DNA from: Geminicoccaceae bacterium
GTDB taxonomy: Bacteria; Pseudomonadota; Alphaproteobacteria; Geminicoccales; Geminicoccaceae
Assembly: GCA_025062095.1 (NCBI GenBank)
Contig: JANXAZ010000017.1
Span: forward strand, 1-64,000
DNA: 64,000 nucleotides
Direction of reading: 5' to 3'
Under the pieces are notes generated by a model. That model saw only the letters and a program-made list of their open reading frames with translations. It was not told the DNA's origin and ran no database searches. Of the stretch, positions 10,841 to 15,429 are shown in pieces; within the stretch, counting starts at the first letter, position 1, and each line of letters starts with the position of its first letter. The position numbers and the translations under genes are program-made.

Positions 10841-13800
10841 TCAGCTACAACCCGTGGTTGCGCCGCAGGTATCGCATTTCAGGCAGGTGCCGTTGCGCAC
10901 CAGCGTGAAGTTGCCGCAGGAGCCGCACGGATCGCCCTCGTAGCCCTTGAGGCGGGCGATCTGCGCCTGCTCCGTGCGCGACATGGGGGAAAGGCGCGCG
11001 GGCTCGCTCGAAGCGGCGACGCTCGCCGGGAAACGCTTGACCGCGACTGTTTCGACCGCCCCGCCGCCGCCCGCGAGAAGGCGCAGGTTGCCGCGGACGA
11101 AGCCGGCGGAGGCGATGCGGGCCACCTTCTCGAAGCCGAGATCCCCCTCTTTGGCGCCGACGCCGATGGCGTCGTGGCGCATCTCGCTCGGATCGATGTT
11201 CGCGAGATCCGTCCGTCCGAGATAGGAGATCGCCAGCTCGCGGAAAATGTAATCGAGCACCGAGGTCGCGAACTTGATGCTGTCGTTGCCCTGCACCGGG
11301 CCGGAGGGCTCGAAGCGCGTATAGGCGAACGCTTCTACGAACTCCTCGAGCGGCACGCCGTATTGCAGCCCGATCGAGATCGCGATCGCGAAGCTGTTCA
11401 TGAGCGAGCGGAAGGCCGCTCCCTCCTTGTGCATGTCGATGAAGATCTCGCCGAGCGTACCGTCCTCGTATTCGCCCGTGCGCAAGTAGACCTTGTGGCC
11501 GCCGACGATCGCCTTCTGGGTGTAGCCCTTGCGCCGGTTGGGGAGCTTGCGCCGTTCGGTGATCCAGCGCTCGACGACGCGTTCCGTGACCTCGATGACT
11601 TTTTGCACCGCCGGGCGCTCGCGCGCCGGCTCGTCTTCCGCCTCCTCGTCCCCGCCGACGAGGAAGCCGGCGAGCGGCTGCGAGAGCTTGGAGCCGTCGC
11701 GATAGAGCGCGAGCGCCTTCAACCCCAACCGCCAACCCTCGAGATACGCATGGGCGCAGTCCTCGACCGTCGCCTTGGCGGGCATGTTGATGGTCTTGGA
11801 AATGGCGCCGCTGATGAACGGCTGGGCCGCGGCCATCATCTCGAGATGCGCGCGGACCGACAAGAAACGCTTGCCGATGCGCCCGCAGGGGTTGGCGCAG
11901 TCGAAGACCGGCAGATGGGCTTCTTGCAGATGCGGAGCGCCCTCCACCGTCATCGTCCCGCAGCAATAGAGGTTGGCGGCTTCGATCTCTTCTTTCGTGA
12001 AGCCCAGATGCGCGAGGAGATCGAAGCGCGGATCGGCGAGCTGGGCCTCCGTGAGGCCGAGCTTCTCCTTGCAGAAGGCATCGCCCAGGACGAAGCGGTT
12101 GAACGCGAATTTGATGTCGAAAGCGGAGGGCAGGGCGGCTTCGAGGCGTCGGAGCGCCTCGTCGTCGAAGCCGCGCGCCCGCAGGCGTTCGTGGTTGACG
12201 CCCGGTGCGCCTTCGAGGGTGCCGCGACCGACCGCGTAGGCCGTGATGTCCTCGATCTGTTTCGGGCTGTAGCCGAGGACCTCCAAGGCCTTGGGAACCA
12301 TCCGGTTGATGATCTTGAAATAGCCGCCGCCGGCCAGCTTCTTGAATTTGACGAGGGCGAAGTCGGGCTCGATCCCGGTGGTGTCGCAGTCCATGACCAG
12401 CCCGATCGTGCCGGTGGGTGCGATCACCGTCACCTGCGCGTTGCGCACGCCGTGTCGTTCGGCCGCCGCGAGCGCTTCGTCCCAGGCCTTGCGCGCCGCC
12501 GCGACGAGCGCCTTGTCGCGACAGGCCGCGGCATCGAGCGGTATCGGGAGGGTGTGCAGGCCTTCGTAGCCCTCGCGCGCGCTCCACGCGGCGCGGCGAT
12601 GATTGCGCAGCACGCGCAACAGATGCTCGCGGTTCTCGGCGAATCCCGGGAAGGGGCCCAGCGCCGCGGCCATCTCCGCCGAGGTCCGATAGGCGACGGC
12701 GGTCATGAGCGCGGTGATCGCCGCGCACATCGCTCGTCCCTCGGCGCTGTCGTAAGGCAGCGCCAGAGACATCAAGAGCCCGCCGAGGTTCGCGTAGCCG
12801 AGACCGAGGGTGCGGAAGCGCCAGGAGCGCTCGGCGATGGCGCGCGAGGGGAACTGCGCCATCAGTACCGAGATCTCGAGCACGATCGTCCACAGCCGCA
12901 CGGCGTGCTCGAAGTCCTCCACGGCGAAGCTGCCGTCGTCGCGACGGAAGGCCATGAGGTTCAAGGAGGCGAGATTGCACGCCGTATCGTCGAGGAACAT
13001 GTATTCCGAGCAGGGGTTCGAGGCGTTGATCCGCCCCGAGGCCGGGCAGGTGTGCCAGTCGTTGATCGTGGTGTCGTACTGAATGCCCGGATCCGCGCTC
13101 GCCCAAGCGGCGCGGGCGATCTTCTGCCAGAGCTCGCGCGCCTTGACGGTCTTGGCGACCTTGCCGTCGGTGCGCCGGACGAGGTGCCAGTCGCGGTCCT
13201 CGAGCACCGCACGCATGAACTCGTCGGTGACGCGCACCGAATTGTTCGAGTTCTGCCCCGAGACCGTGAGATAAGCCTCGCCGTCCCAGTCCGTGTCGTA
13301 AACCGGGATCTCGATCCCTCTGAAGCCCTGCCGCGCGTAAGCGATCGCCTGCTGGATCGCTCCGTCCGGCAGAAACGCCTTGCGCGCCTCCCGCACCGCC
13401 TTTTTGAGCGCCGGATTGGCCGCCGGATCGAAGCGATCGGGCCCCTCGTAGCCGGGGTCGTGGCAGGCGGCCATGATCGCGTCGACGTGCTTCTTGAGGA
13501 GCCGCGAGCCGGCGACGAGGGCCGCGACCTTCTGCTCCTCGACCACCTTCCATTCGATGAACTGCTCGATGTCCGGATGGTCGATGTCCACGATGACCAT
13601 TTTGGCGGCGCGCCGGGTCGTGCCGCCGGACTTGATCGCCCCGGCCGCGCGATCGCCGATCTTGAGGAAGCTCATGAGGCCCGACGAACGACCGCCGCCC
13701 GAGAGCGGCTCGCCTTCGCCGCGCAAGGTGGAGAAATTCGTCCCGGTACCCGAGCCGTACTTGAACAGCCGCGCCTCGCGCACCCAGAGGTCCATGATCC

Positions 13801-14443
13801 CGCCTTCGTTGACGAGATCGTCTTTGATGCTCTGGATGAAGCAGGCGTGCGGTTGCGGCCGCTCGTACGCCGTCGTCGAGGGCCGGACTTCGCCCGTGGC
13901 CTCGTCGACGTAGAAATGCCCCTGAGAGGGACCGTCGATGCCGTAGGCCCAGTGCAGGCCGGTGTTGAACCACTGCGGGGAGTTGGGCGCGGCGATCTGG
14001 GCGGCCAGCATGTAGCGCAGCTCGTCCATGAACGCCCGCGCGTCGGCCTCGCTCGCGAAATAGCCGTTCTTCCAACCCCAATAGGTCCAGGTCCCGGCGA
14101 GCCGATCGAAGACCTGCTTGGCGCTCCGTTCGCCTCCGAACCGCCGCTCGGGGGGTAGGGCTTCGAGAGCCTCCTCGTCCGGGACGTGACGGGCCAGCCA
14201 GTCCGGCACGCCTTTCTCGCGCACCGGTCGCAGCACCTTCGCCACGCCCGCCTTACGGAAATACTTCTGAGCGAGGACGTCGATCGCTACCTGCGACCAG
14301 CCGGCCGGGACTTCGATGTCCTCGGCGCGGAACACGATCGAACCGTCCGGGTTGCGGATCTCGCTCGACGCCGTGCGGAAGGCGATCGAAGCATAAGGCG
14401 ATACGCCTTCCCGAGTGAACCTACGCTCGATCTTCAGCGCCAC
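10841..14443 (-). CDS. nrdJ: Adenosylcobalamin-dependent ribonucleotide reductase, class II
   Basis: A roughly 1200-residue reductase making deoxyribonucleotides with B12, independent of oxygen. The alphaproteobacterial NrdJ N terminus ([19 protein letters not shown]) is present. So are [28 protein letters not shown] and [20 protein letters not shown], and a C-terminal cysteine-rich tail ([27 protein letters not shown]) likely to bind zinc and relay electrons. The start is GTG 14443, with GGAGGA six bases upstream; an upstream ATG at 14533 would add residues unlike the family. No cobalamin riboswitch was recognised upstream. Confidence 0.97.
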
Positions 14444-15048
14444 CGCGATCCTCCTCCGAGGGTGGACGCTAGGTGTTCCGCTTCCGTTCGTCAACCCGGC
14501 CGGCTCGCGCGGATATGAAGATTTTCGTCCCAATCATCCCGCTCGTCGCAAATCTCATTGGGCCTGATCTCAACGAACAGTTTAGACCGGACCGCGACCG
14601 CGCGCAAGCCGAGACCGTTCCGGGCTCGACGAACGGAGCGCCCTAGCGCGCCACAAGATATGGGAACTCCCGCGGCCCGCCAACCCAGATTTTGAAGTTA
14701 TCCACGGTTTTCGCGGTCGCCCACAGGCGGGTGGTCGCACGGCGAGGGTCGCCGCGCGCGCGCCGCCGCCCGCGGCGTGCTCGGCCACGGGAAGCCGTGG
14801 CGCCGGCGCGAGCGCGGGGTCTCAACTTAATCTCAATCAACTCTCAAGACTCGAACTTTCCGCGCTTTCCACAGGGCGGCAAGCCCGGCTCAGCTTTTCT
14901 CTCAGCCTTTTATCAACTCACGGTTTGTCCACAGTCCGTCCGCACGCTCGGGCGCCGTTTCCCGCTCGCGCTCGGATTTGAGCGGAACTGGACAAGGAAC
15001 CGCGGGTCGGCCATCTCCGAGCTCGACGGTCGTTGGCGGAGGAAGGGC
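14444..15048. promoter_or_regulatory. Divergent nrdJ/ndufa12 control region with DnaA-box-like sites and phased repeats
   Basis: This 605-base gap has no convincing gene. It contains four sites resembling the DnaA box TTATNCACA in the same orientation: TTATCCACG (14698-14706), CTTTCCACA (14865-14873), TTATCAACT (14910-14918) and TTGTCCACA (14925-14933). It also contains three copies of TCTCAA starting at 14820, 14831 and 14842, exactly 11 bases apart, and another at 14568. Parts are locally AT-rich (14820-14860, 14892-14930). The region could let DnaA control nrdJ, or less likely act as a replication origin. It must also hold the promoter of the NDUFA12 gene. Confidence 0.5.
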
Positions 15049-15429
15049 GTGCTCGCCTGGCTCAGGGACAATCGCTTCGGGACCTGGTGGTTCACGCGCC
15101 GACGCGGCGAGCTCGTGGGCGTCGACGAGTACGGCAACCGCTACTACCGCGAGCGCGGGGCGCGGGACTGGCGTAGCGAACGGCGTTGGGTGGTCTACGC
15201 GGGAGAAGGCGAGATCGAGCCTTCGACGGTTCCGCCCGGGTGGAACGCCTGGCTTCATCACACTCTCGAGAAGCCCCCGAGCGAACAGCCCCTGGCCAGG
15301 AAACGTTGGGAAAAGCCGCACGAGCCCAACCGCTCGGGAACGCCCGAGGCGTGGTTTCCGCCCGGCGACGAGCGGGGCGGGGGCAAACGGGCGCGGGCGA
15401 CCGGAGACTACGAGGCCTGGCGGCCTTGA
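15049..15429 (+). CDS. NADH:ubiquinone oxidoreductase NDUFA12-family subunit
   Basis: The 126-residue product matches the NDUFA12 (B17.2) accessory subunit of complex I found in mitochondria and alphaproteobacteria. Motifs include NRFGTWWFTRRRGELVGVDE, YGNRYYRERGA, RRWVVYAGEGE and PPGWNAWLHHTLEKPP. It attaches to the peripheral arm of complex I. The start is GTG 15049, eight bases after GGAGGAA. This choice gives the family length and drops about 119 upstream open codons that lie in the control region. Its end overlaps the convergent DsbA-like gene by 22 bases. Confidence 0.88.
   Translation: MLAWLRDNRFGTWWFTRRRGELVGVDEYGNRYYRERGARDWRSERRWVVYAGEGEIEPSTVPPGWNAWLHHTLEKPPSEQPLARKRWEKPHEPNRSGTPEAWFPPGDERGGGKRARATGDYEAWRP

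Follow-up and report, generated by a model that had tools for sequence, protein, structure and literature searches.

In Escherichia coli, DnaA boxes lie upstream of the ribonucleotide reductase genes nrdAB, which also carry NrdR boxes, according to the available passages of three papers (PMC8203912, PMC11317965, PMC12176259). In one of these passages, DnaA activates nrdAB at low DnaA-ATP (PMC8203912); in another, nrdD, a class III gene and the second reductase class concerned, is bound upstream by DnaA in ChIP-seq (PMC11317965). Caulobacter crescentus, also an alphaproteobacterium, uses DnaA as a transcription factor whose regulon includes FtsZ, PodJ, GcrA and NrdB, as far as the accessible text goes (PMC3193534). 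NrdB is named among the genes directly regulated by DnaA and its control is proposed (PMC3193534, PMC8203912, both available in part). Among class II genes, nrdRJ of Streptomyces coelicolor has NrdR twin boxes about three helix turns apart, and the passages at hand describe two boxes so spaced as bound by NrdR (PMC9110341).

Here we analysed a 64-kb stretch of DNA (the window), which corresponds to contig C52 of a 3.30-Mb Geminicoccaceae genome in 143 contigs (G000). Its nrdJ gene resembles E. coli nrdAB in having DnaA-box-like sites upstream, together with candidate NrdR-like boxes. From the sites, the enrichment of their placement, their occurrence where NDUFA12 is not a neighbour, the NrdR-like pairs in relatives and the genes for DnaA and NrdR, we consider it probable that nrdJ is jointly controlled by DnaA and NrdR, and that the boxes couple dNTP supply to initiation.

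The region between nrdJ and NDUFA12

The nrdJ gene (10841..14443, minus strand) encodes an adenosylcobalamin-dependent (class II) ribonucleotide reductase of 1200 aa with Pfam domains PF02867, PF08471 and PF12637. Its GTG start, preceded by GGAGGAGG, was chosen from the sequence and a family alignment. The divergent plus-strand gene at 15049..15429 belongs to the NDUFA12 family (PF05071), with its start taken from alignment. A first-pass annotation had described four same-strand DnaA-box-like sites upstream of nrdJ, two with one mismatch and two with two, and all four were confirmed on the plus strand within 236 bases: TTATCCACG at 14698..14706 (one mismatch to TTATNCACA), CTTTCCACA at 14865..14873 (two mismatches), the weak site TTATCAACT at 14910..14918 (two mismatches) and TTGTCCACA at 14925..14933 (one mismatch), which has the TTRTCCACA form. 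A fifth site on the same strand, TTAATCTCA at 14827..14835, is weak (two mismatches) and probably not functional. All of the sites in the window are imperfect relative to TTATNCACA.

Beside the first of these sites is an NrdR-like twin box that the annotation had not reported. The proximal box, CCACAAGATATGGGAA (14651..14666), keeps its ATAT core in the genus alignment, and the distal box, AACCCAGATTTTGAAG (14682..14697), is abutted by the DnaA-box-like site at 14698. Both were identified in a twin-box scan with what we take to be the NrdR box consensus, the distal one together with the genus alignment. The pair has a spacing of 31 bp and a score of 17, which is within the shuffle range of 14-17; the evidence for it is the genus alignment. 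This alignment also reveals, on the nrdJ side of the NrdR-like boxes and ahead of the nrdJ start, a 25-bp block (14564..14588, minus strand; CTGATCTCAACG..AGTTTAG in the plus reading, GGTCTAAACTGTTCGTTGAGATCAG in the nrdJ sense) that is nearly invariant in six genus genomes, is partly kept in other family members and may be a promoter or leader element. A possible NDUFA12 promoter, TGGACA-N17-CATCTC (14989..15017, plus strand), was picked by eye from the same alignment, in which TGGACA is aligned in all six rows. An Rfam scan of the window returned no family at the gathering threshold; the region is therefore not explained by a B12 riboswitch or any other RNA family represented in Rfam.

The chance of such a cluster was simulated with first-order Markov sequences, counting four same-strand sites of at most two mismatches within 236 bases. 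It appeared in 11/500 sequences of 64 kb, and in 1/500 when two of the sites also had at most one mismatch. With the 605-bp intergenic region simulated alone, the corresponding counts were 17/5000 and 0/5000. Restricting the statistic to runs of four successive sites gave 10/300, and 0/300 with the stricter requirement; counted in this way, the window does not satisfy that requirement either. Taken alone, the window cluster is unusual, not overwhelming, and modestly significant.

Across the 3.30 Mb of G000, TTATCCACAG does not occur, TTDTCCACA occurs 10 times and TTRTCCACA 4 times. The latter is no commoner than its reversed control (4 vs 6); the special feature is therefore the placement of the word, not its number. 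The annotation had proposed scoring boxes genome-wide for enrichment at this locus: an overall TTRTCCACA excess is absent from G000, whereas one of the four copies does stand at nrdJ (14925).

DnaA boxes and NrdR-like pairs in relatives

We located nrdJ in 28 of 31 family (Geminicoccaceae) genomes, two of which (G006 and G008) have the upstream region truncated at a contig end; the family set thus comprises 26 genomes with 1 kb upstream of nrdJ each. TTRTCCACA occurs 27 times in these 26 kb, in 18 of the 26 genomes, where 0.069 sites are expected from each genome's own density (calculated with rounded genome sizes and over all DNA, not intergenic DNA alone). The reversed word is found 0 times in the same DNA, and 499 permuted word pairs give a mean of 0.13 and a maximum of 3. 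DnaA boxes at nrdJ exceed background in the family, as for a DnaA-controlled reductase promoter. Minus-strand TTTTCCACAAG sites in three relatives (L020, L023 and L029), which overlap NrdR-like boxes, are uncounted by the word TTRTCCACA.

The eight family genomes with no TTRTCCACA within 1 kb of nrdJ include four members of the window's genus (G021, G022, G023 and G024), a genus with imperfect or partly absent boxes. The word is present at nrdJ in 2/6 genus genomes, and TTATNCACA with one mismatch in 4/6, since a one-mismatch box of a different form is present in G021 and G023. The remaining two of the five genus-mates, G022 and G024, carry TCCACAG cores and no TTATNCACA of at most one mismatch. 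At the position of the 14698 site, G023 has TTATCCACC, which does not occur there in the other four genus-mates. The nrdJ region of G022 does not stand out: over 1.17 Mb, 22% of the clusters anchored on a site score as well.

Outside the family, a query of 16 family NrdJ N-termini matched in 258/289 genomes of the class, and the weak matches are probably other reductases. Upstream regions were read in 106 non-family genomes, made up of 26 loci and the 80 next-best places among the matches listed; G050 and G288 (too little upstream DNA) and G165 (congeneric with two others) were excluded, and one of the 80 added loci, L248, has 119 bases upstream. In these best-matching class genomes, TTRTCCACA lies upstream of nrdJ in 20/106, with 23 sites in 105 kb compared with 2 for the reversed word, and the other 86 have none within 1 kb. 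Most of the class sites are on the upstream side of an NrdR-like twin box. TTATCCACA, present in 18 of the 106, ties for 11th place among all 9-mers by genome number, alongside GC-rich words and ACAAAATCT and ATTTTGTGG of the NrdR-like boxes. In a set of 80 named genomes, 21 TTRTCCACA sites were found in 79 kb upstream (1 kb each; 19/80 loci), compared with one in the remaining 375 kb of these loci, which is largely coding. Setting aside seven genomes taken as Geminicoccaceae (L090 by guess) leaves 15/73 with a site. Besides Geminicoccaceae, 16 of the alphaproteobacterial families drawn have sites at nrdJ, and a perfect box is present in the cultured genera Rhodospira, Stappia, Microvirga, Inquilinus and Phyllobacterium. 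The nrdJ-NDUFA12 neighbourhood has itself been long kept: NDUFA12 lies within the nrdJ upstream region in 25/26 family genomes with a readable region and within 1 kb upstream in 59/106 class genomes.

NrdR-like pairs accompany nrdJ in both sets. The best pair has a spacing of 31 or 32 bp and a score of at least 19 in 20/26 family genomes (shuffles 0) and 66/105 class genomes (shuffles 2). A merged class set of 177 regions, from which seven presumed Geminicoccaceae and one near-identical region were dropped, includes 134 with an NrdR-like pair. Within these, TTATCCACA lies upstream of the pair by at most 80 bp in 13/134 and by 80-300 bp in 14/134 (permuted words 0.03 each), and it was not found in the stretch 47-200 bp beyond the pair start on the gene side. 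In five class regions TTATCCACA overlaps the pair itself and may have letters in common with an NrdR box. In the 22 family regions with a scored pair, exact TTATCCACA occurs in 0 at most 80 bp upstream, in 7 at 80-300 bp and in 2 between pair and gene.

The regulators are encoded too. The nrdR gene (TIGR00244) was found in all five genomes tested, G000 included. DnaA of G000 (Pfam PF00308) carries VARPRQ and GGRDHTTV, presumably the usual box-binding motifs, and by these motifs its box-binding domain is intact. The first-pass suggestion of a link between DnaA and a class II reductase gains support, at the sequence level, from the placement enrichment in family and class, from sites where NDUFA12 is not a neighbour and from a DnaA with box-binding motifs.

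A class I reductase small subunit was not found in 29/31 family genomes. In the class genomes, boxes within 300 bp occur in 13/66 without class I and 2/40 with it (Fisher 0.044, for both TTRTCCACA and TTATCCACA); the remaining seven comparisons gave 0.10 to 0.64, and the excess is not seen at wider cut-offs. For the value of 0.044, the four class I matches of lowest strength, three of them below the cut-off, were treated as absent; it becomes 0.043 with one of them counted as present and 0.022 with all four. Proximal boxes and lack of a class I reductase show no more than a trend towards occurring together.

Joint control and competing readings

Under joint control, the region would be the nrdJ control region, read by two regulators. 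NrdR would sit on the twin boxes 31 bp apart and repress at high dATP, and DnaA would bind the boxes at the far side of the NrdR pair. Transcription of nrdJ would then be tied to the amount and nucleotide state of DnaA, and dNTP supply would follow initiation. DnaA activates several Caulobacter targets. By analogy with these and with E. coli nrdAB, DnaA is expected to activate nrdJ. We infer the binding of DnaA and NrdR, the action of DnaA on nrdJ and the sign of this action.

The window sites could instead be chance matches or decayed relics, with working boxes kept in relatives only. Such a history would fit boxes that are all imperfect, the lack of any box of at most one mismatch in G022 and G024, and a significance of about 1 in 500 for the window by itself. 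It seems somewhat unlikely given that TTGTCCACA at 14925 is one of just four TTRTCCACA in the genome, that 17 of the 25 other family genomes carry this word in the same upstream kilobase, and that all six genus genomes, as aligned, share an unchanged CCACAG at 14869-14874. A different function for genuine boxes, as a DnaA sink or nucleotide-exchange locus (datA/DARS-like) placed here by coincidence, is suggested by several boxes of at most one mismatch close together in the relatives L007, L011 and L024. We consider this quite improbable, as only one box is present in many relatives and the boxes were not seen to form a fixed array. The boxes might also serve the divergent NDUFA12 gene, or both genes, leaving nrdJ a bystander. 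TTGTCCACA at 14925 is much closer to the NDUFA12 start (124 bp) than to nrdJ (about 480 bp), and boxes are nearer NDUFA12 than nrdJ in 11 family genomes, the window's genome included. However, six family genomes have a box 87-112 bp from the nrdJ start, and in G013, where the genes are apart (NDUFA12 is on the opposite side of nrdJ, 3.3 kb past its end; nrdJ is split over two contigs), four boxes of at most one mismatch stay with nrdJ and none is upstream of NDUFA12. Outside the family, boxes stand near the NrdR-like pair and are about equally frequent with or without NDUFA12 in the DNA at hand: 9/47 regions without and 11/59 with it in a first set, searched over 1 kb only, and 11/46 without and 4/27 with it in a second, searched over up to 2.5 kb. 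Service to NDUFA12 is therefore unlikely, and we think that nrdJ rather than NDUFA12 is the target of the boxes.

A replication origin, which the first-pass annotation had raised as a more remote reading, would be in keeping with a cluster of DnaA-box-like sites, with parts of the region being less GC-rich and with a window GC skew that dips below zero at about 13-16 kb; similar dips are however found at 33-40 and 51-58 kb. The annotation had also proposed a GC-skew analysis of the full chromosome. In the complete genus-mate G022, a single contig of 3,762,466 bases, the cumulative skew over 40 samples of 20 kb, spaced evenly, is lowest near 0.5 Mb and highest near 2.26 Mb; a continuous 490 kb refined the minimum to 542-552 kb, and the skew amplitude is weak. 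In many Alphaproteobacteria hemE is near oriC, which is often next to hemE or dnaA. In G022, hemE is at 574,724, some 25 kb from the skew minimum, whereas nrdJ is at 2,171,560, 1.6 Mb from hemE; the minimum is thus not at nrdJ (2.17 Mb), contrary to the origin reading. In G026, a box cluster is beside hemE and far from nrdJ. No clear box cluster was found next to hemE in G022 or G000, and in G000 hemE (C66), dnaA (C44) and nrdJ (C52) are on three contigs. On the basis of GC skew and of where hemE lies in the complete genome, we reject the nrdJ region as oriC for the genus, and regard an origin here as extremely improbable.

Several DnaA-box-like sites occur elsewhere. The best cluster in 1.17 Mb of G022 (C1:610214) is separated by about 60 kb from the point of minimal skew and may mark either the origin or a further DnaA target. 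Six family genomes have sites at the start of rsmH and about 400-460 bp upstream (L032:8088 and 8544, which are G000 C63:20087 and 20543; also L042, L043, L044, L047 and L313). The gene was assigned by tblastn and is the head of a murein/division cluster in G000; it is a candidate second DnaA target. In L045 and L046, which have box pairs about 210-220 bp apart, tblastn gave no rsmH match. On C8 of G001 (L041:3859-4169), two perfect boxes and one near-perfect box are just downstream of a ParB-like gene (by eye), possibly the origin region of that genome. On C4 of G005, two perfect boxes (L048:3022 and 3078) are upstream of a gene resembling a plasmid replication initiator (by eye).

Comparison with described reductase circuits

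The available passages describe E. coli nrdAB as a class Ia system of Gammaproteobacteria with a double DnaA box and demonstrated binding. In contrast, nrdJ here is class II and has single or spaced boxes with predicted DnaA binding. Caulobacter NrdB is also class I, and nrdJ is not named as a DnaA target in the accessible text of the study (PMC3193534). For class II genes, the word DnaA has 0 occurrences in the available part of the Streptomyces coelicolor nrdRJ paper (PMC9110341) and is absent from that of a Pseudomonas aeruginosa NrdR paper that covers nrdJ (PMC4409342), and the term 'class II' is absent from the available part of the review PMC8203912. DnaA at nrdJ in Alphaproteobacteria was not found in a literature search over titles, abstract openings and passages, with few subscription journals covered.

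The placement of boxes at nrdJ suggests that cells link the provision of DNA building blocks to replication initiation, and the cultured genera with a perfect box offer a directly testable nrdJ promoter. More tentatively, and leaning slightly against it ourselves, we speculate that the DnaA and NrdR module on nrdJ could be an old alphaproteobacterial circuit from initiation to a B12-dependent reductase, tightest without class I, and that in Geminicoccaceae DnaA could also mark where the division/murein cluster begins.

Measured against the literature passages available, in which class I and class III cases are already described, there is strong sequence evidence for DnaA control at a class II reductase as a new case. 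If true, it would span organisms where no class I reductase was detected, and the coupling of initiation to dNTP supply would have been kept although the type of enzyme was exchanged.
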